Below, one piece after another: positions 1 through 11,765 of a DNA stretch of 64,000 nucleotides; positions within the stretch are counted from its first letter, which is position 1; each line of letters starts with the position of its first letter. The stretch comes from Steroidobacter agaridevorans (GTDB taxonomy: Bacteria > Pseudomonadota > Gammaproteobacteria > Steroidobacterales > Steroidobacteraceae): assembly GCF_009932555.1 (NCBI RefSeq), contig NZ_BLJO01000004.1:529179-593178 (forward strand), read 5' to 3'. The notes beneath the pieces are model-generated. The model was not told the DNA's origin, did not search any database, and saw nothing but the letters and a program-made list of their open reading frames with translations. The translations under genes were made by a program, and so were the position numbers.

Positions 1-1
1 G

Positions 2-1057
2 GCGAATGCGCACCACGTCTGGATCGATCACAACGAGCTGTACACCCGGAACATGAAGTGCCCGGGCACGCCGGATGACGATACGACCTTCGATGGCCTG
101 CTCGATATCAAGAACTCGGCCAGCTTCATCACCGTCTCGTACAACTTCATTCATGATCATGCGAAGGTCGGCCTGATCGGCGCGAGCGACACGGACAGCG
201 CGGAGCGGCGCGTGACGTATGCTCACAATCGATACGAGAACGTCGGCTCGCGTCTGCCATTCCAGCGCTTCGGCTACACGCACGTCTACAACAACTACTA
301 CAACAACATCACGGGCAGCGGCATCAATCCGCGCATGGGCGGCCACGTCCTGATCGAGAACAACTTCTTCGAGAATGCGCTGAACCCGGTGTTCTCGCAG
401 TCGAGCATCCTCGGCCAATGGGACCTGCGCAACAACAACGCCCGCAGCTCCGCGGATAACGCGCGTTTCAACATCCGCTGGACGGCCTGTTCCGGCAGCA
501 CGCCGTGCCAGAAAGCAACCGACTGGACGACGACAGCGACGTTTCCGATCGCACTCCCGTACACGTACACCACGTACGCGCCTGAGGTTTCCCGTTGTAT
601 CGCGTTGAACGCGGCAGGCTCGGGCAAGGGCCTGAGAGAAGCCGCGAGCGTGCTGAATATGTGCGGGGGCAGTCCTACGAACGATGTCTATCAAACCGAG
701 AATGGGGCCATGGGCGGCGGCACTGTTTTCGAGAATAAGAATGCCGGATTCAATGGCGCCGGCTACGTGAACTCGTCCACCAACGGCGGCTTTGCACAGA
801 TCGACAACGTCGACGGCCGCGGCGGCGGTGCGAAGACCCTGCGCATCCGGTTCGCTCTCGGCGTTTCGACGGCGCGCGCGGGACGGCTGGTCGTGAATGG
901 AGTCGGTACAAACATCACATTCAACTCGACCGGAACATGGGCGACGTGGGTGCTGCAGAACGTCACCGTGACGCTGAACAACGGTGCCGCGAACACGATC
1001 CGATTCGAGTCGACCGGCCAGGACCTGGCGAACATCGACCAGGTGGAAGTCCTTTGA
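2..1057 (+). CDS. Pectate lyase (PL1 family) with C-terminal CBM35-like domain, 5' end missing
   Basis: Secreted pectate lyase cleaving polygalacturonate by beta-elimination. The reading frame is open from base 2, so the true start lies before the window. Visible PL1 hallmarks are the vWIDHNE strand at the very start, DGLLDIK followed by iTVSYN, HDHAKVGLIG, and the RLPFQR segment, which matches the RxPxxR motif that carries the catalytic arginine in this family. After about residue 220 a glycine-rich linker leads to a beta-rich module of about 120 residues (AMGGG, GFNGAGYVN, IDNVDGRGGG, NIDQVEV) typical of CBM35/CBM6 carbohydrate-binding domains. Family assignment rests on motifs. The signal peptide is presumably upstream of the window. 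The gene ends 80 bases before the 3' end of a convergent RidA-like gene. Confidence 0.9.
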   Translation, partial: ANAHHVWIDHNELYTRNMKCPGTPDDDTTFDGLLDIKNSASFITVSYNFIHDHAKVGLIGASDTDSAERRVTYAHNRYENVGSRLPFQRFGYTHVYNNYYNNITGSGINPRMGGHVLIENNFFENALNPVFSQSSILGQWDLRNNNARSSADNARFNIRWTACSGSTPCQKATDWTTTATFPIALPYTYTTYAPEVSRCIALNAAGSGKGLREAASVLNMCGGSPTNDVYQTENGAMGGGTVFENKNAGFNGAGYVNSSTNGGFAQIDNVDGRGGGAKTLRIRFALGVSTARAGRLVVNGVGTNITFNSTGTWATWVLQNVTVTLNNGAANTIRFESTGQDLANIDQVEVL

Positions 1058-1137
1058 GCGGTCCGCGAGCGTGCGATTCGCAAGCACCGAACGCGTGCCG
1101 CAAGGACCCGGAGACTCGCCGAGTCGGCAATCTGGCG

Positions 1138-1599
1138 TCACGGGCTGGTCGGCAGCAGGGCGGTAAAGCTGATCTCGATGAGCTGCTCCGGAAAGGCCAG
1201 CCGCGTTGTCCCCACAATCGTGCTCGCACAGCTGGGGCGATCGGTTCCGTACGCCGCCTTGCGCACCTTGCCAGCGACGGCGAACGCTGCATCCACGTCT
1301 AAGACGTAAAGCGTCTCCTCGACCACGTTGTCGAGCGCTGCGCCGAAGCGGTGCAGGAGTCGGGCGGCATTTGCGTATGCCGTTTGCATCTGCAGTTCCA
1401 TGTTCGTCGCATCGAGGATCTTGCCCGCCGCATCGATGGGCGCGGGCGCGACGAGCTTGCCGCTCTCATCGTGACTCAGCTGGCCCGATACGAAGATCAC
1501 ATTGCCGACTTGGACCGCCTGGCCGTAACCGTAGGCGCTCTCCCAGGGCAGACCGAAATTCTCGACTCGTTTGGCGATGGGTTTGGCTGCGAGTGACAT
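1138..1599 (-). CDS. RidA/YjgF-family protein
   Basis: 153 residues, the usual RidA (Rid/YER057c/UK114) size with a short N-terminal extension. Family members hydrolyse reactive enamine/imine intermediates, and some act within degradation pathways. The central VGNVIFVSGQL segment and the region around PSCASTIVGTTRLAFPEQLIEI fit the beta-alpha-beta fold. The catalytic arginine region of RidA (R-x-T/C before the last strands) appears as DRPSCAS. An in-frame start six codons upstream exists, but the ATG at 1599 has an AGGAGG ribosome site a few bases ahead of it, so I chose this start. It is transcribed divergently from the truncated isochorismatase-like gene, sharing a gap of about 70 bases. 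Substrate unknown; it belongs to a RidA subgroup rather than canonical RidA. Confidence 0.85.
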   Translation of the reverse strand: MSLAAKPIAKRVENFGLPWESAYGYGQAVQVGNVIFVSGQLSHDESGKLVAPAPIDAAGKILDATNMELQMQTAYANAARLLHRFGAALDNVVEETLYVLDVDAAFAVAGKVRKAAYGTDRPSCASTIVGTTRLAFPEQLIEISFTALLPTSP

Positions 1600-1669
1600 G
1601 ACGCCTCCTGAGAACAATTCCGCGAGCTCAGCATCCGGACTCGCAGGCTCTGCGTCTTGAAGGATTGCG

Positions 1670-2257
1670 ATGGGAATTGGCTCAGGGCGCGCTCGCCATC
1701 ATGTAGCAACGGCGTCCAAGAAAAGCCGGCAGCTCCCAGCGAAGATCGTGCGCACCGAAAACTCGAGGATTCCCGTCATCACCACGGCCTCGGAACCGAA
1801 CGGCCCGAATGGACCGCTGATGTCGGAGCTTGCGCATGCGGCGCCAAAGGCTCTGTATGTACCGCGCAAGGGTGAGGTGAACGCCTGGGACAATCCGGAT
1901 TTCGTCGCCGCCGTTCGCAAGACCGGCCGGAAGACTCTGATCATGGCCGGTGTCTGGACCAGTGTCTGCGTCATGTTCCCGGCGCTCGACGCCAAGGCGG
2001 CCGGCTACAAAGTCTATGCGGTCACGGACGCTTCGGGCGATCCGAGCCTGCTCGCGTCGAGCACGACGATTGCCAGATTCGTGCAGGCCGGCATCGTCCC
2101 GACTTCGACCAACGCGGTTGTGAGCGAGGTTCATCGGACCTGGAATCGACCGGACGCCCCGGAGATTGCAAAGCTCTACGGTCTCATCTCGCCGAACTAT
2201 GCCGCCGTAGCGGAGAGCTTCAACAAGGCGCAGGCAGCTGCGCGGCAGAGCGAGTGA
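1670..2257 (+). pseudogene. Isochorismatase-like (YcaC-type) hydrolase, apparently 5'-truncated
   Basis: From about residue 33 onward the protein follows the YcaC-type cysteine hydrolase pattern: IPVITTAS, NGPLMSEL, NAWDNPDFVAAV, TGRKTLIMAGVWTSVCVMFPAL (nucleophile Cys in TSVCV) and VTDASGDPS. The family's first 30 or so residues, which contain the catalytic Asp in the first beta strand (the D-x-Q region), are absent. In their place is a short basic stretch (GRARHHVATASKKSRQ) with no resemblance to the family. The Asp-Lys-Cys triad is therefore incomplete. I read this as a gene that lost its 5' end to deletion or rearrangement, though expression from the ATG at 1670 is possible. It is followed after 7 bases by the porin gene, so the pair may be co-transcribed. 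Confidence 0.6.
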
Positions 2258-2264
2258 TCGCGCG

Positions 2265-3578
2265 ATGATCGAGCGCTGCCAGCCGCTGTGGGGGAGCGCA
2301 GTTTGCAGCGCCCGCACGCTACTGGTAGCGCTCTGTATCGTCACTACGACGATCGAGCCCTCGCACGCGCAAGACCAAAACTGGTCGCTCGAGGTTAGTG
2401 GCGAGCTGCGGGAGCGCTTCGAGTCCGCCAACAATCCCGTGTTCGGGCTCTCGGCGCCTGCGCAAAACGACTATCTGCTGCACCGAGCGTCTGTCTCTGG
2501 AGAGCTTCGTCGCGGCGACGACTTTCGCGCCGTCGCGAAGATCGTGAGCGGCCTCACTTCGAGCTGGAGTGGATCGCCACCGCCCACGCAGGAGGATTCG
2601 CTCGATGCTTTGGAAGCTTACGTAGAGCAGTCGTTGTCACTCGCACGCGGGCAGCTCGCATTGCGCATCGGGCGGCAGGAAATGGCGCTCGGTGCTGCGC
2701 GCCTCGTGTCCGTGCGCGAGAGTCCCAATGTTCGGCGTGCGTTCGATGGCGTCAGTGCGTCGTGGACAGACGGGGAACAGCAACGTGCAACAGCGTTCTT
2801 CTTGCGTCCCGTGTGGCCCGAGGATGGCATCTTCGACGATCGCAGCTCGCAGGCGGAGCGATTCTGGGGTCTCTACGCCACCTGGCTGCCCAGTCCAGAA
2901 CGCCTCGGGATCGACACATATTATCTGGGGCTCGATCGGGCCAATGCAGTGTTTGCTCAAGGCTTGGCACGAGAGCTGCGTCATACCATCGGTGCGCGTG
3001 CGTTCGGCATGCGCGCCGGCTGGGACTGGAACATCGAAGCTGCCTGGCAGTGGGGATCGTTCGGCGCGGCCAACATTCGCGCATGGACTGTTTCAATCGA
3101 TGCTGGATTCGAATTCGCCGCTCTGCCTTTCACGCCGCGGGTCGGTCTCAAGGCGGATGCCATCAGTGGCGACCGAAATCCGCACGATCGCGAACTGGGT
3201 ACCTTCAATCCTCTGTTTCCCAAGCTTCCCTATTTCTCCGAGGCCAACCTGGCGACACCCGCCAATCTGCTGGACATTCAACCGAGCCTGAGTCTGTCGC
3301 TCACCGATCGCCTGAGCGCCACGCTGAGCTGGAACAGATTGTGGAAACATGAAAATGCCGATGCCTTCTACGCGCCCCTATTGACGCCGGTGACCGGTAC
3401 CTCGCGGAGTCGATCTCGGGACATCGGGTCGCAGACGAGCATGCTCGTCAGTTGGCAGGCCACTCGGCAGCTCGATCTCGGCGCTACCTACGTCGCATTC
3501 GAGCCACATAACGTCATCCGGCAAGCGGACGGTCGTGCAGGCAGCTTCCTTGCAGCATGGATACGATGGACCTTCTAG
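2265..3578 (+). CDS. Alginate-export-family outer-membrane porin
   Basis: 437 residues. An N-terminal hydrophobic segment ends in SHAQ, a plausible Sec signal with cleavage after the Ala. The mature part matches the Alginate_exp beta-barrel family: ELRERFES near the start, IGRQEMALGAARLVSVRESPNVRRAFDG in the middle, FNPLFPKLPYFSEA, and a C-terminal strand ending in WIRWTF with a terminal Phe, as outer-membrane barrels require. Members such as AlgE export alginate in Pseudomonas. In gene sets without alginate synthesis genes, as here, they more often act as substrate porins, so the transported solute is unknown. The start follows the truncated isochorismatase gene by 7 bases. The 3' end overlaps a short relic of a dctM gene on the other strand. 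Confidence 0.85.
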   Translation: MIERCQPLWGSAVCSARTLLVALCIVTTTIEPSHAQDQNWSLEVSGELRERFESANNPVFGLSAPAQNDYLLHRASVSGELRRGDDFRAVAKIVSGLTSSWSGSPPPTQEDSLDALEAYVEQSLSLARGQLALRIGRQEMALGAARLVSVRESPNVRRAFDGVSASWTDGEQQRATAFFLRPVWPEDGIFDDRSSQAERFWGLYATWLPSPERLGIDTYYLGLDRANAVFAQGLARELRHTIGARAFGMRAGWDWNIEAAWQWGSFGAANIRAWTVSIDAGFEFAALPFTPRVGLKADAISGDRNPHDRELGTFNPLFPKLPYFSEANLATPANLLDIQPSLSLSLTDRLSATLSWNRLWKHENADAFYAPLLTPVTGTSRSRSRDIGSQTSMLVSWQATRQLDLGATYVAFEPHNVIRQADGRAGSFLAAWIRWTF

Positions 3579-3631
3579 TGCGAGCCCGTCGCAGGAATCA
3601 ATAGCGCGATCGATGGCACGCCGATCAGGAC
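3575..3631 (-). pseudogene. Relic of a TRAP transporter large-subunit (dctM) 3' end
   Basis: Read on the minus strand this stretch encodes LIGVPSIALLIPATGSH followed by a stop. The intact DctM encoded at 13665-14954 ends LIGVPSIALLIPATT. The two DNA stretches (here and around 13670-13716) are nearly identical over about 45 bases, with mainly synonymous differences. Upstream on the minus strand the frame loses similarity within about five codons. This is a 3' fragment of a dctM paralogue left by a deletion or rearrangement, overlapping the stop codon of the porin gene. Confidence 0.6.
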
Positions 3632-3730
3632 CTGGAAGTCGCGAAGAAATGTCTCGCGGCGGTTGCCGAGCAGGATCGAGAGTGGATTTTTGCCGGAACT
3701 GCGCAGGTGTTGTATCCGGCGCTGGAGTGA
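3629..3730 (+). pseudogene. Tail fragment of an unrecognised gene
   Basis: An open + frame with protein-like composition reads DLEVAKKCLAAVAEQDREW..., continues to LYPALE and stops at 3728-3730. It has no start codon of its own that makes sense, and it abuts the dctM relic on the opposite strand. The arrangement looks like a rearrangement scar joining the 3' ends of two different genes. No family recognised. The remaining bases up to 3811 show no gene. Confidence 0.3.
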
Positions 3731-3811
3731 TATCCCCATTCAGGCTTTCCCCGCTATGCAGCTTTTGTGCGTGTTCATAACATCGCCGCGTGCCAAATAG
3801 GAGGGCCCCGA

Positions 3812-4150
3812 GTGATCACGCGCTTTCGATCTATCGTTGCAGTATCGCTGCTGATGGCATCATCTACCGCCGCGCACGCCTACACGGAATGCACTGGAAA
3901 CGTAACTCGGATCTGGAATGACGGCACTACCTGGGTTTGGTTCGATACAGGTCTCGTTTGGGGACTGTGGCCGGCCGATGACGAACAAAATCTCAACGGT
4001 AAGGACCGATCGAAGAACATCCTCGCGCTGGCGACGACAGCCATGGTCAGCGGGCGATCGGTAACGGTGCGGTTCATCAACGACGGAGTGTCGTGTTCCG
4101 GGCAGCAGACAGCGAATAAAGTTTGGGGTCTTTATCTCAACTCGATGTGA
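3812..4150 (+). CDS. Small secreted protein, RHS-island paralogue family, member 1
   Basis: 112 residues from a GTG start at 3812, preceded by a clear TAGGAGGG ribosome site. An ATG at 3767 would add 15 residues in front of the signal peptide and is less likely. The signal peptide runs to AHA|YTE. The mature part of about 90 residues starts with a Cys (YTECTGNV), has a Trp-rich middle (TWVWF, GLVWGLWP), and ends in an alternating pattern: small-residue helix, then SGRSVTVRF, then GVSCSG, then KVWGLYL. The same layout occurs in the proteins at 4197-4526, 4576-4932 and 11409-11765, so I group them as one divergent family. Two cysteines probably form a disulfide. Function unknown. A perfect hairpin follows the stop codon. 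Confidence 0.7.
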   Translation: MITRFRSIVAVSLLMASSTAAHAYTECTGNVTRIWNDGTTWVWFDTGLVWGLWPADDEQNLNGKDRSKNILALATTAMVSGRSVTVRFINDGVSCSGQQTANKVWGLYLNSM

Positions 4151-4158
4151 ACCGTGTT

Positions 4159-4182
4159 GCCTGGCTGCTCGCGCAGCCAGGC
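4159..4182. terminator. Bidirectional hairpin between convergent genes
   Basis: Perfect 10-bp stem (GCCTGGCTGC with its complement) and a 4-base loop TCGC, lying between two convergent small secreted genes. There is no T-tract on either side, so it may need Rho or act as an RNA-stabilising stem. Confidence 0.55.
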
Positions 4183-4196
4183 AGTGATCACACTGC

Positions 4197-4526
4197 TCAC
4201 TTCGAGATGAAGATGTCGTAGAGGCCGCACTCGCTAAAGATCCGAGTACCGGCGTCCTCCGCCCTGATGTAGACATTGAGCTCGCTCGAAAAAGCCATCA
4301 TCGCGGTTGCGTAAGCCGACCTGCCGCTGGGCGAGTTCATGTCGAGCCAGTAGCGCTTACCGCATGTGCCCGTTGTTTGCGCCATACCGACGAAGGCGTA
4401 CGTGCCTTCGACTCGCAAGTCGGTTATCGGACCGATGTTCGCGACCAGGCCTGCTTGCGCATTAGAGATGCCCAGCATGCATGCCATGGCAATCAAGAGA
4501 GTGAATCTGCCAGAGTTTTGTTTCAT
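4197..4526 (-). CDS. Small secreted protein, RHS-island paralogue family, member 2
   Basis: 109 residues. The ATG at 4526 has AAGGAG nine bases upstream and opens a classic signal peptide (basic MKQNSGR, hydrophobic core, ISNAQA cleavage). A much longer in-frame opening upstream lacks these signs and was ignored. The mature part shows the family layout: IGPITDLRVEGTYAFVG, a Cys/Trp middle (GTCGKRYWLDM), a small-residue helix (SAYATAMMAF), LNVYIRAED, and a final Cys strand (FSECGLYDIFIS). It lies 49 bases downstream of member 3 on the same strand, and the pair is probably co-transcribed. Function unknown. Confidence 0.7.
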   Translation of the reverse strand: MKQNSGRFTLLIAMACMLGISNAQAGLVANIGPITDLRVEGTYAFVGMAQTTGTCGKRYWLDMNSPSGRSAYATAMMAFSSELNVYIRAEDAGTRIFSECGLYDIFISK

Positions 4527-4575
4527 GTTGCACGACTCCTTGTCCGCTAGATCATCCTGAAAGCTCGACTGCAAC

Positions 4576-4932
4576 TCAGCCCAGATCCTCGACGAAATAC
4601 ACGCTGGCGGCATTCCAATCCGCGAGAGTGCAGGTTTGGGCGGGGTCCCGCATGTAAAGGCGTACTGTGGTTCCGGCCTTTTGAGCTGCGATGAAGAGGG
4701 CGTGCCAACTGCGGCAAGCGGCGGCTGTGGTTGCGACGCCTTGGTAAGTGCCGTCGACGCTGACACTGCACAGCAGCCAGTGTCCGTTGTTCCCCTGGCG
4801 AATGTAGAGTGACCCATCGTTCTGAACAGCGACGCTGGTGATGGGACCATCGCACATGGCGGCGCCGGCATTTGAGCAGAGCAGGGTCGTCAGCAGCACC
4901 GCAACGAACGCATTCTTGAACATACTTGGCAC
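4576..4932 (-). CDS. Small secreted protein, RHS-island paralogue family, member 3
   Basis: 118 residues with a signal peptide ending SNAGA|AMCDG. The mature part carries CDGPITSVAVQNDGSLYIRQG, HWLLCSV, AACRSWHALFIAAQKAGTTVRLYM, TCTLADW and a last strand ASVYFVEDL. Four cysteines in the mature region suggest two disulfides. Spacing and hydrophobic pattern match member 2 immediately downstream and member 1 on the opposite strand; pairwise identity is low by eye. Small periplasmic or secreted proteins of this kind often sit near secreted toxins, but no enzymatic motif is visible. Confidence 0.7.
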   Translation of the reverse strand: MPSMFKNAFVAVLLTTLLCSNAGAAMCDGPITSVAVQNDGSLYIRQGNNGHWLLCSVSVDGTYQGVATTAAACRSWHALFIAAQKAGTTVRLYMRDPAQTCTLADWNAASVYFVEDLG

Positions 4933-5307
4933 CCTTCCGTTGGGATTTTGTGATGGTTATCTCGTTGGCCGCGAGTAGTTTCGAGCTACGCCGTTACGCT
5001 GTCAACGAGGTCGGCTTCGAGTTCGGCAAATTCCTGAATCGCTTCTGCCTCTATTGACATAGACACAGGCCGGACTCGAAACTGGACTGAACACTAAACA
5101 GGAACAGAAGCTCACGTCAGGGAAGAGAAGCTCACGCTGATTCTTCGCGGCAGCCGTCGCTCTACATCAACCAATGCATTCGTCCGCGCCGATCCACGCA
5201 AGTCGGGATTGGCCGAGCGGTCGTGCGGCTGCGCAACGCCTTCCCTGATTTCAAGCTGACGCTCGTTGGTGTCCAGAGTTCGGTGGAATGGGCGGCACGA
5301 ATAAGTG
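4933..5307. other. Intergenic region, no gene recognised
   Basis: About 375 bases between a leftward small secreted gene and the rightward RHS/Ig-like gene, so it must hold divergent promoters. A TTGACA at 5054-5059 is a possible -35 box for rightward transcription, but the sequence 17 bases later is a poor -10. The 11-base word AGAAGCTCACG occurs twice, at 5107-5117 and 5126-5136. From about 5136 to 5300 the + strand is open in one frame but has no start, ribosome site or recognisable product. Confidence 0.4.
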
Positions 5308-5868
5308 ATGACAAGAGTCAATGCTCGCGGTGGCAGTTCAGCCACCGTACTCAAGCGGTGTGGTGGGGTCGCGGTTCTAGCAGCATGCGTCGGGCTTGTC
5401 AGCCCTGTGCGGGCTGAGGAGACCGTCACCTATTCGTACGACGCCCTCGGCCGGGTCATCTCGGTGCAAAGCGCCGGCGGACCCAACGATGGCATCCAGC
5501 ACAGCTATCGCTATGACGCGGCGGGCAATCGCACTCAGTTCGTGATCGGCGACGTTTTTGAGTTCAGCCGGACGAACAACGTGGCGAACATCGTGTCCGG
5601 CGGTGCTGTCATCGAGGTGAACGTGAGCGGCAGCGGCGCTCTGACCGGCACCGTGACGTTTACCGAGAACGGCGTCTTCCTCGGCTCCACGCAGGTTTAC
5701 GATGGTCGGGCGAGCGTCTTTTTGCAGGGCCTGGCGCCCGGCGTGCATACGATCACTGTCAGCTATTCCGGCGATGCCATCAACGCGCCTTACTCGCGCA
5801 CGTTCACGATCCGAGTTCAGAACCTGAGCTGGCTGCCTGCCGTGCTGGACTTGCTTCTGGCGGACTAG
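5308..5868 (+). CDS. Short secreted RHS-repeat plus Ig-like domain protein
   Basis: 186 residues from the ATG at 5308 (a GTG directly before it is equally possible). A signal-like segment (VAVLAACVGLVSPVRAEE) precedes two RHS/YD units: TYSYDALGRVISVQSAGG and HSYRYDAAGNRTQFVIGD. The rest is an immunoglobulin-like beta domain of bacterial type: GSGALTGTVTFTENGVFLGSTQV, then GLAPGVHTITVSYSGDAINAPYSRTFTIRV, with a hydrophobic tail. Full RHS proteins have dozens of YD units, so this is either a stand-alone adaptor/adhesin or a displaced end of an RHS gene with a new C-terminus. It lies 60 bases upstream of the large RHS gene on the same strand. Confidence 0.75.
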   Translation: MTRVNARGGSSATVLKRCGGVAVLAACVGLVSPVRAEETVTYSYDALGRVISVQSAGGPNDGIQHSYRYDAAGNRTQFVIGDVFEFSRTNNVANIVSGGAVIEVNVSGSGALTGTVTFTENGVFLGSTQVYDGRASVFLQGLAPGVHTITVSYSGDAINAPYSRTFTIRVQNLSWLPAVLDLLLAD

Positions 5869-5928
5869 CGTCGCGCCGCTTGCAGTCGATTTGATTTGAG
5901 GACGAGGAAGAGGGAGAGGGTGAGGCGG

Positions 5929-8900
5929 ATGTTCAGTGTTCTCCGGCCGATGGTTGGCGCGGTTCTGTTGTTCGTGGGGTGCATAACGCCGGCATTGGCG
6001 CAATTGTCCTCGGACGCGCCGCCGCCGAAAGTTCAGGCGATCGACCAAGTCAATGTCGATCTGCGCTCCGGTCAGTTCGTGTGGGCCGCTGGCACGCTCA
6101 GTATCGGTCTGGCCGACAAACCGGCGCTCACCTACACCTATCTCGCCTCCAGTGGCGGCGCCGATCAGAGCACGCCGCGCGAGGGCAGTGTGTACTGGCT
6201 GTGCTACGACGATGGCTCGGGCTATTGTTCGTACAACAACTACTACTTCAAAATGGACTGGCGCGTTGAAGCTGCCGAGTACGGCGCGATCGAGACGGCT
6301 GAGAACTCGCGTATGTCCGAGACACTCACGGAGTATTTGCTCACGCAGCGTGATGGCACCGTATTGGCCTTCGCCAAGTCGCTGGCGCGACCCAACTACT
6401 ATATGGACAGCCAACCCGGCGGTCCGACCGAAGTCGCGCGACTCACGTCGGTGACTTACCCCAATGGCGAGAAGCTGCTCTACAGCTACTCAGGCAACCA
6501 AGGCGCGCGCTCCATCACGAGCACGACGGGTTACCAGCTACGACTGGTCGATGACAAGATCAGGCTGATCAACCTGGCGGTCGACTATTGCGATCCAAGC
6601 GCGTCCGGTTGCACGCTGACTCGGCAATGGCCAGAGGTTGCGACGTCGCAGTTCCATGCAACCGACACGATGGGTCGCACAACTCGGATGAGTACGGTGA
6701 CCCAGCCGGGGCCGAATCTTTCTGCGTTTACGATTACCAGCCCGACTGGACGAACGACGACTGTTACCAGGCAATCTTCGCCTTACCCAAATACGTGCTT
6801 TGCGCCGCCGACGGTCTCGCAGATCACCACCGCGGCGGGCACATGGACTTACAACCCTACATACAATTCCAGGGGCTGCATTCTGTCCAGGTCGGCGACG
6901 AATCCAGCGAACGCCACGACGCAAATACCGAATACCGCAAATGCTTCGGGTTTCATGATCATCGATCCGCTCGGCAGAGCAACCTCATACGAGCATGATT
7001 TGGTCACGGGGACCATGAAAACGGTGGTTCTCCCCGAAGGCAACAAGGTCGTCTCCACGTTCGATCAGCGTCACAACCAAATCGAAACTGGGGTCACGCC
7101 CAAACAGGGCTCCAACCAAAGCCCAACGAGCTCCTCGGCGAATTATCCGCCCTCGTGTGTGGCGGGCACCGAGAAGACTTGCAACCAACCGACATACACT
7201 GTCGACAGTCGCGGCGGGCGTACTGACTACTACTACGATCCGCAGCATGGCGGTGTCTTGAGAAAGACTTTGCCCGCGGGCGCGAATGGAGTGCGTCCGC
7301 AGACCCGCTTCAGCTACGAGCAGCGCTCGGCCTATTACAAGAACGCATCGGGGCAGCTCGTCGCCGGTCCGCCGATCTGGAAACTCGTTCGCACATCGGC
7401 TTGCCGCACGCAGGCTGGAGCCCCGATCACGGGACCTGGCAACGCAGCGTGCGAGAACACCGCGGATGAGGTCGTCACTGAGTACGGTTACGACGGCAAC
7501 CTGTTGCCGGCTACGGTGACGGTGCGGGCTGGAGATGGGTCGGTCAGCGCGACCACGACCACCACCTATGATCCAGTGGGCAATGTCGTCTATGTCGATG
7601 GGCCGCTGCCGGGCTCAGCGGACACGACTCGCTATGTTTACAACGCCAATCGCGAACTGGTTGCGACGATCGGTCCCGACCCGGACGGCAGCGGCAGCCT
7701 GCTGCATAGGGTAAAGCGAACCAGCTACAACGATGACGGCCAGCCGATGTTGATCGAGCAAGGCACCGCCACGAGCCAGTCCGATGCCGCGCTTGCCGGG
7801 ATGGCTGTTCTCCAGCAGATCGCAATGGACTACGACGCCGCGGGTCGCAAGATCAAGGAGCGCGTGATTGCCGCTGGCGCGGTCCAAGCCGTGACCCAGT
7901 ACAGCTACGACATTGCGGGTCGGCTGGAATGTATGGCGGTGCGCATGAACCCGAGCGTCTTCTCATCATTGCCGAACTCCGCCTGTCAGCTGGGGCCGCA
8001 AGGTACTTTCGGCCCAGACAGAATTACCCGCACTGTTTACGACGCGGCCAATCAGATCCGGGTGGTGCAGCGGGCGTATGGCACGGCGGTGCAGGCGAAT
8101 CAGTCGACGACGTATACGCCGAATGGCCTTGCCGAGACCGTCGCCGATGCCAACGGCAACCTCACCACCTACGCCTATGACGGCTTCGACCGGCGGATGC
8201 GCATTTACTATCCCGACAAAAACAACGGCGCGGTGAGCTCGAGCAGCGACTATGAAGCGTTCGACCATGACGCGGCCGGGAATGTCAGGAGTCATCGGTT
8301 ACGCGACGGGCAGACGCTCTCCCACACTTACGATGCGCTCAATCGCCGTACTTACGACACGAACCCCAAGACGAACGTTGCCGAGGTGGACGTCAGTTAC
8401 AGTTACGACAATTTCGGCCAGCTCATATCAACGAGCGATGGAAATGGCTGGGCGGCTGGGTTCGGCTATGACCCGTTCGGGCGCGTTGTGCAGCAGTCGA
8501 GCAATCTGTCGTACAACACTTTCCAATACGATTCCGCCGGTCGCTTGATCCGGCAGACGTGGGCGGACGGATTCTTCACCACGTTCGACTATCTTGTCAC
8601 CGGTGAGGTGTCGGCCATCTGTGAGAACGGCAGCTGTGCGAGCGGCAGCTTCAAGCTCGCATCTTTTGGTTACGACAACGTTGGGCGTCGCACGTCGCTT
8701 ACGCGCGGCAATGGAACGAGCTCGAGCTATGGTTACGATGCTGTCTCACGGCTCGAGGCGCTTAGCCACAACCTTGCGGGCACGAGCGCCGATTTCGCGC
8801 TTACGTTCAGCCGCAATCCTGCCGGCCAGATCACAACGCGCACATCGACCAATGACTCGTATGCGTGGACCTCGCCGTCCAGCGACTCGCGCGGCTATGC

Positions 8901-10074
8901 GGTGAATGGACTCAACCAGTACACGCAGGCGGGCAGTGTCGCGCCAACTTACGATACACGCGGCAACCTGACTTCTATCGGAGGCAAGGTCTGGCAGTAC
9001 AACTCACGCAATCGGCTCTTTCAGGACAATGCCGGCAACTCCTTTTATCATGGCCCGCTCGGGATGCTGAGCCAGGCCGACGGCCTGAGCTTCGACTACG
9101 TCGGCAACAAACTAGCCACCGAGTTCAGCGGCGGTCAGGTCGCGCGGCGCTACGTGTACGGTCCAGGCGTCGATGAGCCGCTGGTGTGGTACGAAGGCGC
9201 CGACACCGGTGCGCGCCGATGGCTGCACGCGGACGAGCGCGGTTCGATCGTGTCGGTCAGCGACAGCGCCGGGAGTGCGACTGCCATCAACACTTACGAC
9301 ACCTACGGCCTGCCAGGCTCCTCAAACCAAGGCCGCTTTCAGTACACGGGCCAGAAATGGATCGCCGCGCTCGGCATGTACGACTACAAGGTCCGCGTGT
9401 ATTCGCCGACCCTCGGACGCTTCCTGCAAACCGATCCGATCGGATCCGCAGATGACCTCAATCTTTATGCGTACGTCGGCAACGATCCCATGAACAAGAC
9501 CGATCCCACCGGTCAGTACGGTCGGGGCAACGGCTACTCCGAAGAGGAGTGGCGGAAGTTCGAGAGGATTCAGAGGCAAGCGGCCAACGATATGGAACGT
9601 AGGGCGCAGCGGTTGGATAAGCAGGCGAATAAATTGGACGCAAAGGGCAAGCCGGGCGGCGACGATCTGCGTATAGCCGCTACGAACTTGCGAAACGGAG
9701 CCAAGGATCTGCGCAGTGACGGCTCGGATGGAAAGTTGGCCCACGCCGTGGACGGTGAGACCTATGTAAAGATGGGCGGAACGACGGGGGGCGCGGCGAG
9801 AGCCGAAGTCGGTGGCAACGAGATGTGGATAAACAAGGACAACAAGAACGCCTGGCAGGCCCGCAACAATGAAGGCATGCTCAAGTGGGTCGTCGGCCAC
9901 GAATCCTTGCATTCGGGCGCCAGGCTGATCGACCTGGCACTCGATATGGTTTCTTCGTACGCATTCGGAAGCCCGGAACAGCGCCGTGCTTTCGAGATGT
10001 CGCGAGGAAACAGGGAGGGTTACTACAAGCCCGACAACCTGATGGATCTCGTCTATCCCAAGTTCGCGCACTGA
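5929..10074 (+). CDS. RHS-repeat polymorphic-toxin-like protein with C-terminal HExxH metallopeptidase-like domain
   Basis: 1381 residues from the ATG at 5929, preceded by a purine-rich GAGGGTGAGG site; an in-frame TTG 33 bases earlier would put Arg/Lys residues ahead of the signal. A Sec signal (VGAVLLFVGCITPALAQ) comes first, then many YD repeats (YSYDIAGRLE, YGYDAVSRLE and others) that build an RHS shell. The conserved RHS core end, LGRFLQTDPIGS then NLYAYVGNDPMNKTDPTG, lies at about residues 1162-1195. Beyond it the sequence changes character: a charged helical stretch (ANDMERRAQRLDKQANKLDAKG), then VVGHESLHSG with HESLH at residues 1324-1328, a zinc-protease HExxH motif, and a conserved-looking tail with PDNLMDLVYP. 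In polymorphic toxins this variable tail is the effector. There is no PAAR, VgrG or TcB-like N-terminus, so export is probably Sec-dependent to the periplasm or surface. The gene just downstream is a candidate immunity or partner lipoprotein. Confidence 0.85.
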   Translation: MFSVLRPMVGAVLLFVGCITPALAQLSSDAPPPKVQAIDQVNVDLRSGQFVWAAGTLSIGLADKPALTYTYLASSGGADQSTPREGSVYWLCYDDGSGYCSYNNYYFKMDWRVEAAEYGAIETAENSRMSETLTEYLLTQRDGTVLAFAKSLARPNYYMDSQPGGPTEVARLTSVTYPNGEKLLYSYSGNQGARSITSTTGYQLRLVDDKIRLINLAVDYCDPSASGCTLTRQWPEVATSQFHATDTMGRTTRMSTVTQPGPNLSAFTITSPTGRTTTVTRQSSPYPNTCFAPPTVSQITTAAGTWTYNPTYNSRGCILSRSATNPANATTQIPNTANASGFMIIDPLGRATSYEHDLVTGTMKTVVLPEGNKVVSTFDQRHNQIETGVTPKQGSNQSPTSSSANYPPSCVAGTEKTCNQPTYTVDSRGGRTDYYYDPQHGGVLRKTLPAGANGVRPQTRFSYEQRSAYYKNASGQLVAGPPIWKLVRTSACRTQAGAPITGPGNAACENTADEVVTEYGYDGNLLPATVTVRAGDGSVSATTTTTYDPVGNVVYVDGPLPGSADTTRYVYNANRELVATIGPDPDGSGSLLHRVKRTSYNDDGQPMLIEQGTATSQSDAALAGMAVLQQIAMDYDAAGRKIKERVIAAGAVQAVTQYSYDIAGRLECMAVRMNPSVFSSLPNSACQLGPQGTFGPDRITRTVYDAANQIRVVQRAYGTAVQANQSTTYTPNGLAETVADANGNLTTYAYDGFDRRMRIYYPDKNNGAVSSSSDYEAFDHDAAGNVRSHRLRDGQTLSHTYDALNRRTYDTNPKTNVAEVDVSYSYDNFGQLISTSDGNGWAAGFGYDPFGRVVQQSSNLSYNTFQYDSAGRLIRQTWADGFFTTFDYLVTGEVSAICENGSCASGSFKLASFGYDNVGRRTSLTRGNGTSSSYGYDAVSRLEALSHNLAGTSADFALTFSRNPAGQITTRTSTNDSYAWTSPSSDSRGYAVNGLNQYTQAGSVAPTYDTRGNLTSIGGKVWQYNSRNRLFQDNAGNSFYHGPLGMLSQADGLSFDYVGNKLATEFSGGQVARRYVYGPGVDEPLVWYEGADTGARRWLHADERGSIVSVSDSAGSATAINTYDTYGLPGSSNQGRFQYTGQKWIAALGMYDYKVRVYSPTLGRFLQTDPIGSADDLNLYAYVGNDPMNKTDPTGQYGRGNGYSEEEWRKFERIQRQAANDMERRAQRLDKQANKLDAKGKPGGDDLRIAATNLRNGAKDLRSDGSDGKLAHAVDGETYVKMGGTTGGAARAEVGGNEMWINKDNKNAWQARNNEGMLKWVVGHESLHSGARLIDLALDMVSSYAFGSPEQRRAFEMSRGNREGYYKPDNLMDLVYPKFAH

Positions 10075-10085
10075 CCGAGAACAGC

Positions 10086-10583
10086 ATGTCTCTTGCACAT
10101 CCAACCATGAGATTGTTCGGGCTGATCGCAGCGCTGAGCCTGCTCGTTGGTGCGTGTTCAGGTCCGCCGACGAGCAAGGACGGTGATGCCGGCCCGCTTG
10201 CTGAGCGGGATTACACGTTCACGGCGGTCGATGTGCCGTCCGAGGAACGATTCAAGCTTGTGCTGGAGTCGAAGAGCCGGCGACCGATATGCACCGGAAG
10301 CTCAGAGTGGCCGAACGCCGCGGGCTTCATGGAGAATGCCTCGACGCGGGCCTCCGTGGTCGCCGGTCAGGAAACATTCCGATACAAGGATTTTTCCATG
10401 GACGTATGTCCCTGGAAGTCTTGCGGCAATCCGATGAAGCAAGGCGCGCGCATCGAGTCGAGCTTGTTCTACAGGCACTTCGAATTGCCCGAGAGGCTAT
10501 ACGATGCGCCGAAAGAACTGGTGTACCGACCGCACCCGTTCTGGTGCGACACCGGTCATTGGATAGACGAGCGGAAGCGCTGA
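10086..10583 (+). CDS. Lipoprotein behind the RHS gene, candidate immunity/partner protein
   Basis: 165 residues from the ATG at 10086 (another ATG at 10107 gives MRLFGLIAAL and is equally good). The lipobox LVGAC is followed by a short SG-rich linker, so the protein is a membrane-anchored lipoprotein. The mature domain has four cysteines (RRPICTGS, DVCPWKSC, FWCDTGH), an aromatic RYKDF segment and no motif I recognise. It starts 11 bases after the RHS stop codon in the same direction, the position where immunity genes of polymorphic toxins normally sit. A lipoprotein location would suit protection against a toxin acting in the envelope. Role is inference from position. Confidence 0.65.
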   Translation: MSLAHPTMRLFGLIAALSLLVGACSGPPTSKDGDAGPLAERDYTFTAVDVPSEERFKLVLESKSRRPICTGSSEWPNAAGFMENASTRASVVAGQETFRYKDFSMDVCPWKSCGNPMKQGARIESSLFYRHFELPERLYDAPKELVYRPHPFWCDTGHWIDERKR

Positions 10584-10695
10584 TTTCCAGCACGGGTTTA
10601 GCTGGCGTGGTGTCACCGTCGTCAACCCATGCACGGATGAGGTTCACCCGCTGATCAAGGCGTTGTCCGATAGTGCGAGGCTCGATGAAAGGACC
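10566..10695 (+). other. Possible relic reading frame between two accessory genes
   Basis: One + frame here reads FQHGFSWRGVTVVNPC, then TDEVHPLIKALSDSARLDERTGHR and a stop at about 10693-10695. Composition is protein-like, but it has no start codon and an upstream stop in the same frame. It may be the tail of a lost gene between the lipoprotein and the next unknown gene, whose start it overlaps. Confidence 0.25.
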
Positions 10696-11347
10696 GGACA
10701 TCGCTAAGGGCTCCGAGGGCTTGGCGATAGCCTCGAGCGCTGAGAAGCGCTGCGTATTCGTCACGCCGATCGTGGATGTCCTTCTGGGGTTCAGCATCGA
10801 CAGAACCTCGAGCGCGTCTGACAATGTGCTGAGGCCGTTCGCGTTTCCGCTCGCATTTGGCAACACGCTCGTGATCCTCGACTCGACGTTTCCCATGCAA
10901 CACACCCGGTTCAACCCGCAGGAAAAGGATTGCGTTGAACGCGCGCGGGGGCTGCTCCAGCAGTGCGTCGAGCCCTGGCTGAGCGTGCGGCGAACGCTCG
11001 AAGGGCTTATCGCCAACACGCCACCGCCCGAGAAGGGATACAGCTACAGCCTGAGCACTCACATTTACTCACGAGGCCATGGGCCGTCGGTGGTTCGCTT
11101 CGTCAAATTGTTGTGTCTGGTCGACAGAACTGGCGAAGCGCGTGAACTGATAGACGATGCGACTCAGGAATTCGAGAAGCATGGGGGCGAGACGATCGCG
11201 GAAAACGACTATCGAAAGCTCCTCACGCTGCGCTCGGAAATAGTGGACGCGAGCGAAGCTGCCAGAGCCAAGTACTGGAGCGAAGCGCGGCAGGCGATGC
11301 TGAGTGCGCTGAAGATCGATCCCGTGTATTTACACGGTGCGGCCTAA
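10685..11347 (+). CDS. Unrecognised cytoplasmic protein of the RHS island
   Basis: 220 residues from the ATG at 10685. No signal peptide, membrane segment or known motif. The first half is mixed alpha/beta (RCVFVTPIVDVLLGFSID, LAFGNTLVILDSTFPMQ). The second half looks helical and repeat-like (LVDRTGEARELIDDATQEFEKHGG, YRKLLTLRSEIVDASEAARAKYWSEARQAML), similar in feel to TPR-type helical hairpins. Base composition looks less GC-rich than the core genes of the window, consistent with acquired DNA. Position after the RHS toxin and lipoprotein makes a second immunity or orphan gene possible; this is not shown by sequence. Confidence 0.55.
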   Translation: MKGPDIAKGSEGLAIASSAEKRCVFVTPIVDVLLGFSIDRTSSASDNVLRPFAFPLAFGNTLVILDSTFPMQHTRFNPQEKDCVERARGLLQQCVEPWLSVRRTLEGLIANTPPPEKGYSYSLSTHIYSRGHGPSVVRFVKLLCLVDRTGEARELIDDATQEFEKHGGETIAENDYRKLLTLRSEIVDASEAARAKYWSEARQAMLSALKIDPVYLHGAA

Positions 11348-11408
11348 GCTGTCCGGTGCACAATCCGGGGCTGATTTAATGGCGGACGTTGGATTGCAAG
11401 GAGAGCAA

Positions 11409-11765
11409 ATGAACAAGCTGACGAAGGCATTCATCGCGGCAGGGCTGCTGTGTTTTGGCAGCGCTCAGGCCACGGTCAGGTACACCGACGCGCAGATCAT
11501 CGAGATCGAAGTGAGCGATACTCAGATCTTCGTGTTTTTCCAAGTGATGAGCGGCGATGTTCCGCCCCTGGGAAATGGCGGCACGAATAGTCTTCCCAAC
11601 CGACCCTATCTGACGCTGGCGGGCACGGCCGCCGAGGTCGCGAGTCGCAAGCACATGCTGGCCACGGCGCTCGCTGCCAAGGCGTCGGGCGCACCCGTTC
11701 GCGTGCGGTGGGACGACACGAGTGCGACGCCGGACAGAGTGGAGTACCTGCTGGTTCGCAACTAG
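11409..11765 (+). CDS. Small secreted protein, RHS-island paralogue family, member 4
   Basis: 118 residues. The ATG at 11409 has AAGGAG six bases upstream and opens a signal peptide ending FGSAQA. The mature part follows the layout of the three small secreted proteins near 3.8-4.9 kb: an N-terminal strand pair (AQIIEIEVSDTQIFVFFQV), a loop, RPYLTLAG, a small-residue helix (HMLATALAAKASG), APVRVRWDD and a last strand VEYLLVRN. Unlike the others it has no cysteines in the mature region. It is separated from them by the RHS locus, which suggests that the family and the RHS genes travel together. Function unknown. Confidence 0.65.
   Translation: MNKLTKAFIAAGLLCFGSAQATVRYTDAQIIEIEVSDTQIFVFFQVMSGDVPPLGNGGTNSLPNRPYLTLAGTAAEVASRKHMLATALAAKASGAPVRVRWDDTSATPDRVEYLLVRN

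Follow-up and report, generated by a model that had tools for sequence, protein, structure and literature searches.

What does a protein of the rearrangement hotspot (RHS) type do when its C-terminal tail carries an HExxH motif and the next gene encodes a lipoprotein? The question is raised by a stretch of 64,000 nucleotides from Steroidobacter agaridevorans (contig NZ_BLJO01000004.1, positions 529,179 to 593,178), called the window here in its whole length and used for all numbering. An open frame running from the ATG at 5929 to the stop at 10074 (5929..10074) encodes an RHS polymorphic-toxin-like protein of 1381 residues, and the gene of a 165-residue lipoprotein (10086..10583) starts 11 bases after it; both genes, and all features within them, lie on the forward strand. 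The initial annotation of this DNA took the tail for a toxin and the lipoprotein for its immunity protein. This proposal was supported by comparison with five distant relatives of the tail, since HE-S-[LV]-H is kept in all five and each is linked to a relative of the lipoprotein. We consider it probable, judging from sequence, that the two genes form a toxin–immunity pair, made up of a Sec-exported RHS toxin whose metallopeptidase-like tail would act on the envelope, and an outer-membrane lipoprotein that would confer immunity.

The RHS core and its variable tails

The RHS protein contains eight RHS-repeat stretches in Pfam (PF05593, E = 6.7e-27), and its RHS part closes in an RHS-associated core domain (9295..9516; residues 1123-1196, NCBIfam TIGR03696, Rhs_assc_core, E = 3e-21). 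The segment that ends the RHS part belongs to this domain and extends from DPIG at residue 1169, through NLYAYVGNDPMN at 1178, to DPTG at 1192-1195. YD/RHS repeats that close in such a core at a DPxG boundary are a feature of RHS polymorphic toxins, and the core resembles solved Rhs proteins, for example 8h8a and 8cp6; the solved RHS toxins of Gram-negative bacteria matched here are largely type VI secretion system (T6SS) or Tc-toxin proteins. As the initial annotation had described, the core up to DPIG/NLYAYVGNDPMN is followed in the frame by an unrelated tail with HESLH at residues 1324-1328. The Sec signal that it had also assigned was borne out in part: an export signal is predicted at residues 1-25 (5929..6003), with a Sec-like type I site (ALA-Q) recognised by eye, but LFVGC at residues 14-18 fits the lipobox pattern as well, so that the leader is ambiguous.

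Unrelated tails on similar cores, the mark of polymorphic toxins, were observed at several loci. The RHS-core family gave 45 matches in the genus (43 over the cut-off), distributed over 12 of its 14 genomes, with seven in the genome of the window, and the tails and downstream genes differ among the 30 genus loci that were examined. Two of the relatives described below, L083 and L067, show the same pattern. Just upstream of L083 (at L088, which is the same place) lies an RHS 3' end whose core is 91% identical over 57 residues and whose tail is dissimilar, and the second and third RHS cassettes of L067 share 69% of their core over 59 residues and have no tail match. In the L067 locus (2624-7938), three RHS cassettes follow one another; their three tails differ, and in each an HExxH can be read by eye (HEIQH, HESLH and HEMYH); the first and second cassettes are each trailed by a different lipoprotein-like gene.

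Conservation of the tail and its link to a lipoprotein

The tail of the window protein has 187 residues (1195-1381; 9511..10071) and, from the alignment with its five relatives, consists of a helical linker (about tail residues 11-68 in a poor AlphaFold model) and a metallopeptidase-like part that includes HESLH (9898..9912). It belongs to no family of Pfam, NCBIfam or PHROGs at E ≤ 1, and the comparison with metallopeptidase profiles that the initial annotation had called for returned nothing from Pfam or NCBIfam at this threshold. Weak matches of single members to Pfam or NCBIfam families (from E = 0.008) were regarded as chance, as was a PADLOC match to JetC1 over the helical linker of the window tail (E = 0.0037).

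Six tails were compared, that of the window and those of loci L054, L067, L083, L087 and L090, which are 43%, 40%, 28%, 29% and 37% identical to it, respectively. L054 and L067 were found in genome_contigs with a degenerate pattern (HE-x-L-H through PD[NH]L); both are metagenome-assembled genomes, with records titled Proteobacteria bacterium and Thermoanaerobaculia bacterium, the latter class being one that we take to be Acidobacteriota. The remaining 30 of the 32 pattern matches lay in frames lacking the surrounding motif and were dropped. Profile searches yielded L083 (E = 8e-20), L090 and L087, a viral_contigs record. L083 was the sole strong match besides L054 itself when the 216 genomes of L054's order were searched, and L090 came, besides L067 itself, from 109 genomes in the class to which L067 belongs. 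Five of the 216 genomes had matched, and those of L054 and L083 were taken; the other three had E values of 0.001-0.009, and one of them, L085, gave E = 0.008 with a later tail profile too. The tail of L087 is represented by its last 120 residues, read from an ATG, since stops interrupt the frame upstream, where the contig also ends. Its pair of tail and lipoprotein genes is situated at an end of the 51-kb record (region 1-3618), where a small gene and one of the Phage-tail_3 family are in convergent orientation to it.

The tail is rare. When the order (396 genomes) and the class (369) were searched, it was found only in the genome of the window; four weak order-level matches (L002-L005, E = 3e-4 to 0.01) were regarded as chance, and the one inspected, L002, lies antisense to an FtsK-like gene. 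In the family of L090, 1 of 20 genomes was positive, namely its own. Scans for exact tail peptides in viral_contigs and genome_contigs gave nothing new, nor did the pattern scan of viral_contigs, and further tail scans there returned only L087. Searches of plasmids and phages with the window tail, and of plasmids with the window lipoprotein, gave only matches of E = 3 or worse. No plasmid match was obtained with the tails of L054, L087 and L083 or the lipoproteins of L067 and L087, and no phage match with the L087 tail.

An HExxH arose in 98 of 20,000 shuffles of the window tail (about 0.5%), and by itself it is weak evidence; here it is more than chance because it is kept in all five relatives found. 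The initial annotation had staked its reading on homologues conserving HExxH, and each of the five has it in the form HE-S-[LV]-H. Positions invariant in the six tails are Leu67, Asp70-Gly-Ser72, Ala77, Gly129-His-Glu-Ser132, His134, Tyr150, Gly153 and Pro174 (tail numbering), which include both histidines, the glutamate and the serine of HESLH. None of the tails at 29 further RHS loci in the genus has the motif (0/29). These control loci are L017-L046 minus L041, the window's own, and form a subset of the 45 core matches, some of their stretches overlapping.

Two candidates can be named for the third ligand of a putative metal site. One is the aspartate at tail residue 141 (9931..9933), and a second is provided by the Pro-Asp of PDNLMDLVY (tail residues 174-175, 10030..10035), where the proline is invariant and the next residue acidic in all six tails. 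The spacing HExxHxxGxxD is that of snapalysin-type metzincins. In the alignment it can be read in L054, L067, L083 and L090, and the aspartate stands one place later in the window (HESLHSGARLID) and in L087 (HESVHAALRLKD). A truncated or frameshifted tail was rejected: the reading frame is uninterrupted, and L087 has its aspartate in the same shifted place. AlphaFold was run on four sequences. Its model of the window tail has long N-terminal helices, a hairpin ahead of the motif helix and helices behind; at a pLDDT (predicted local distance difference test score) of 49, these elements fit a zincin but prove nothing.

An alternative reading is a toxin tail, countered by the lipoprotein as immunity protein, in which HExxH is another metal site or a structural element and the tail is not a peptidase. 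In favour of such a role are the absence of any sequence tie to a peptidase, the unsettled third ligand, together with the departure of the window and L087 from HExxHxxGxxD, and models too poor to tell. We regard it as unlikely, given that the His, Glu, Ser and His of the motif are invariant in six of six tails at identities down to 28%, and that an aspartate 11 or 12 places past the first histidine and an acidic residue after Pro174 likewise occur in all six. A metallopeptidase-like tail remains the reading that we prefer.

The gene that follows the tail encodes a relative of the window lipoprotein in all five relatives (L054 1757-2182, L067 6354-6761, L083 2082-2621, L087 515-958 and L090 930-1361). 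It overlaps the tail gene by 1 base in L054 and L067 and by 4 bases in L083, L087 and L090. A profile of the lipoprotein matched none of the 29 control loci at E ≤ 1 (0/29); after the RHS stop, 459-1407 bases of sequence were available in 27 of them; the figure is 132 for L024 and zero for L027. Over all the loci collected, this profile matched the five relatives, the window and a lone copy, L016. The lipoprotein thus accompanies the tail in other genomes, as the initial annotation had required, and what characterises toxin–immunity pairs, a cognate gene directly downstream and tied to the tail, is found here (5/5 vs 0/29).

That the lipoprotein is encoded with the toxin in six of six cases, and would sit on its export path, could also be expected of an accessory of the RHS toxin, such as a periplasmic chaperone, an anchor or an export partner. 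A precedent for accessories exists in the RHS bacteriocin Bcn-A, described as needing ORF2 and ORF4 besides ORFA for its activity (PMC7259588). We find this role improbable for the window lipoprotein. It tracks the tail and not the RHS core, being missing from the 29 loci with other tails (27 of them with at least 459 bases downstream), as expected of immunity rather than of a general partner in export, and the copy without an RHS gene (L016) suits an orphan immunity gene. The lipoprotein is accordingly treated below as a putative immunity protein.

The initial annotation had called the product of the next gene a four-cysteine lipoprotein, and this agrees with the sequence: a lipobox, LVGAC, lies at residues 20-24, with the predicted lipid anchor at Cys24 (10155..10157, by pattern match), and the mature part has cysteines at residues 69, 108, 113 and 154, as seen in the sequence and the family alignment. 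No Pfam or NCBIfam family matches it at E ≤ 1. The lipobox pattern fits six of the seven family members, the exception being L016, with Asn before Gly-Cys. The residues at position +2 of the six lipobox members (Ser, the window's own, Ala, Val, Gln, Ala and Ala) do not include Asp; under the +2 rule (mentioned in PMC6899460), this points to anchoring in the outer membrane. Six of the seven members have all four mature cysteines; L083 lacks exactly the inner two and retains the outer pair. That the inner pair alone is lost fits two disulfides, one within each pair, from which we infer an oxidising compartment for the protein.

Searching the order of the window with the lipoprotein gave the window's genome and clearly one other, L007 (the same as L016; E = 6.7e-12); there were nine matches besides the window at E ≤ 0.01, of which L007 was taken, the other eight having E values of 0.001-0.007. 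The lipoprotein alignment matched only the window among 369 genomes of the class and gave nothing new from viral_contigs, and a search of the family of L083 found 1 of 32 genomes, its own. The genomes of L054 and L067 have one copy each.

Export, proposed action and known systems

No match to the T6SS sheath protein VipB, the only T6SS gene sought, was obtained in the genome of the window, which is 97% complete, and the E. coli control was positive. Because of this, a T6SS is unlikely in this genome. The RHS protein also lacks a PAAR- or VgrG-type domain by Pfam, in agreement with the absence of a T6SS adaptor domain noted in the initial annotation, and does not fit the pattern of T6SS Rhs effectors. 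Genes of the type II secretion system (T2SS) were sought in a sample of 1.6 Mb from the 8.0-Mb genome, taken as 80 stretches of 20 kb each, and in the window. A GspD homologue was detected (37% identity over 627 residues, E = 1e-109); after it come homologues of GspE (52%) and GspF (42%), and ahead of it lies a weak match to GspC (20%, E = 2e-4). A weak GspG match in another stretch, L142 (66 residues, E = 4e-6), may be a type IV pilin. At L083/L088 the RHS protein also starts with a signal-like stretch, as judged by eye. Since gspD-E-F are present, and since the activity of Bcn-A from Xanthomonas perforans was lost in a mutant of the T2SS secretin XpsD (xpsD; PMC7259588), export of the RHS protein by a T2SS is our leading guess, made by analogy.

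The action of the pair could proceed as follows. The RHS protein would be exported by Sec into the periplasm, as its leader suggests, and would move onward in folded form, perhaps via the T2SS as in the case of Bcn-A. In Rhs proteins, the tail is enclosed in a cage of repeats and cleavage takes place at the DPxG boundary; the tail of the window protein would likewise be caged and cut free there. Once released, the putative zinc-metallopeptidase tail might act in the periplasm of a competitor or on the inner face of its outer membrane, with envelope proteins or wall peptides as possible targets. The co-produced lipoprotein, presumably braced by disulfides and held at the outer membrane, would bind and block the tail, shielding the producer from its neighbours and also from its own toxin during export.

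Known systems resemble this arrangement in part. Bcn-A is described as an RHS bacteriocin active in the supernatant, similar in size to the window protein (1398 vs 1381 residues) and with a small immunity gene, of 145 residues, in its locus; unlike in the window, this gene is ORF5 and not the next gene, the likeness is one of description, and the word HExxH is absent from the main text of the source (PMC7259588). VgrG2b, in the description of PMC6899460, is a metallopeptidase that is toxic in the periplasm only and harmless after a change of the Glu; its immunity protein, PA0261, is periplasmic and needs the disulfide system, and the corresponding immunity protein in Enterobacteriaceae is a predicted outer-membrane lipoprotein. 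The HExxH and an extracytoplasmic, cysteine-bearing immunity protein, predicted in the window, are common to VgrG2b and the window, whereas VgrG2b is delivered by a T6SS on the VgrG spike, and the search of solved structures with the tail profile gave no sequence match to it. The Tox-MPTase1-5 domains are listed as HExxH tails on RHS repeats, several with T2SS- or Sec-type export, and the table of 2012 leaves immunity blank for them (PMC3482391). The window tail differs in having no Pfam or NCBIfam match at E ≤ 1, although the coverage of all five models by these libraries is unverified. Imm65, catalogued in the same source in 2012, is a lipoprotein immunity family of Tox-JAB-1 from Bacteroidetes (PMC3482391); like the predicted immunity protein of the window, it has a lipobox and goes with a toxin of the RHS type. 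It differs in its toxin fold and its taxonomic range, and the window lipoprotein has no Pfam match. Hence the lipoprotein holds up as an immunity candidate and is less unusual than initially annotated, given the relatives of VgrG2b and Imm65. Because no publication on this pair was found by title and abstract in the open-licence literature, while precedents are known, we call it a new toxin–immunity family of a kind of system already known.

Several observations weigh against the toxin–immunity pair as we propose it. The linkage was seen in just five relatives, and the tail is rare, with the window alone among 369 genomes of its class. The L083 lipoprotein is strongly diverged and without two cysteines, and the relative at L016 (= L007) stands alone, with no RHS gene nearby. 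The window motif departs from the HExxHxxGxxD of L054, L067, L083 and L090, no profile or solved-structure sequence ties the tail to any peptidase, and the AlphaFold models are poor (pLDDT 49 for the window tail and 46 for the core part of L054). The leader of the RHS protein may be lipidated (type II cleavage), which would anchor the protein instead. As to export by a T2SS, only part of a gene set, gspD-E-F with a weak gspC, was seen, and GspG to GspM were not found with K-12 queries in the stretches of 19 and 14 kb (with a 1-kb overlap) that surround gspD, where the frames after gspF do not have the look of pseudopilins by eye.

A toxin directed at eukaryotes, whether competitors or predators, from which the lipoprotein would protect the producer, would accord with the existence of metallopeptidase toxins and effectors against eukaryotes alongside bacterial ones (PMC3482391). 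It seems very improbable here, since the linkage to an envelope protein indicates that the envelope of the producer is itself at risk, that is, a bacterial target. With bacteria as the preferred target, a more far-reaching interpretation can be put forward as possible but doubtful: an uncatalogued family spread across phyla, in which a diffusible RHS zinc peptidase exported by a T2SS attacks the envelope from outside and the outer-membrane lipoprotein is an antidote that guards the export path. The lack of a sheath gene match, the partial T2SS set and the envelope antidote raise two testable questions, whether folded RHS cages pass through a T2SS and whether the lipoprotein protects the producer during export. 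As the Tox-MPTase tails were listed without a partner in 2012 (PMC3482391), the linked partner found here also offers a handle on their substrates.

Neighbouring genes in the window

Sixty bases ahead of the RHS start is the gene (5305-5868) of a small protein that combines YD repeats with a Big_3_5 immunoglobulin-like domain; it may be an accessory gene or a remnant of an RHS gene. On the 3' side of the lipoprotein gene lies an open reading frame of 220 residues without a family (10685-11347), which among the collected loci occurs only in the window's own. Small secreted-looking reading frames with no clear Pfam family were observed at 3767-4150, 4197-4871 and 4576-4932 (both on the reverse strand) and 11337-11765. 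Reading frames of this type also follow the L083 pair, with no clear kinship to the window set by blastp. Further upstream of the RHS gene, a pectate lyase with carbohydrate-binding matches (53-1057) and an alginate-export-type protein (2265-3578) are encoded, both of which are genes of polysaccharide use.

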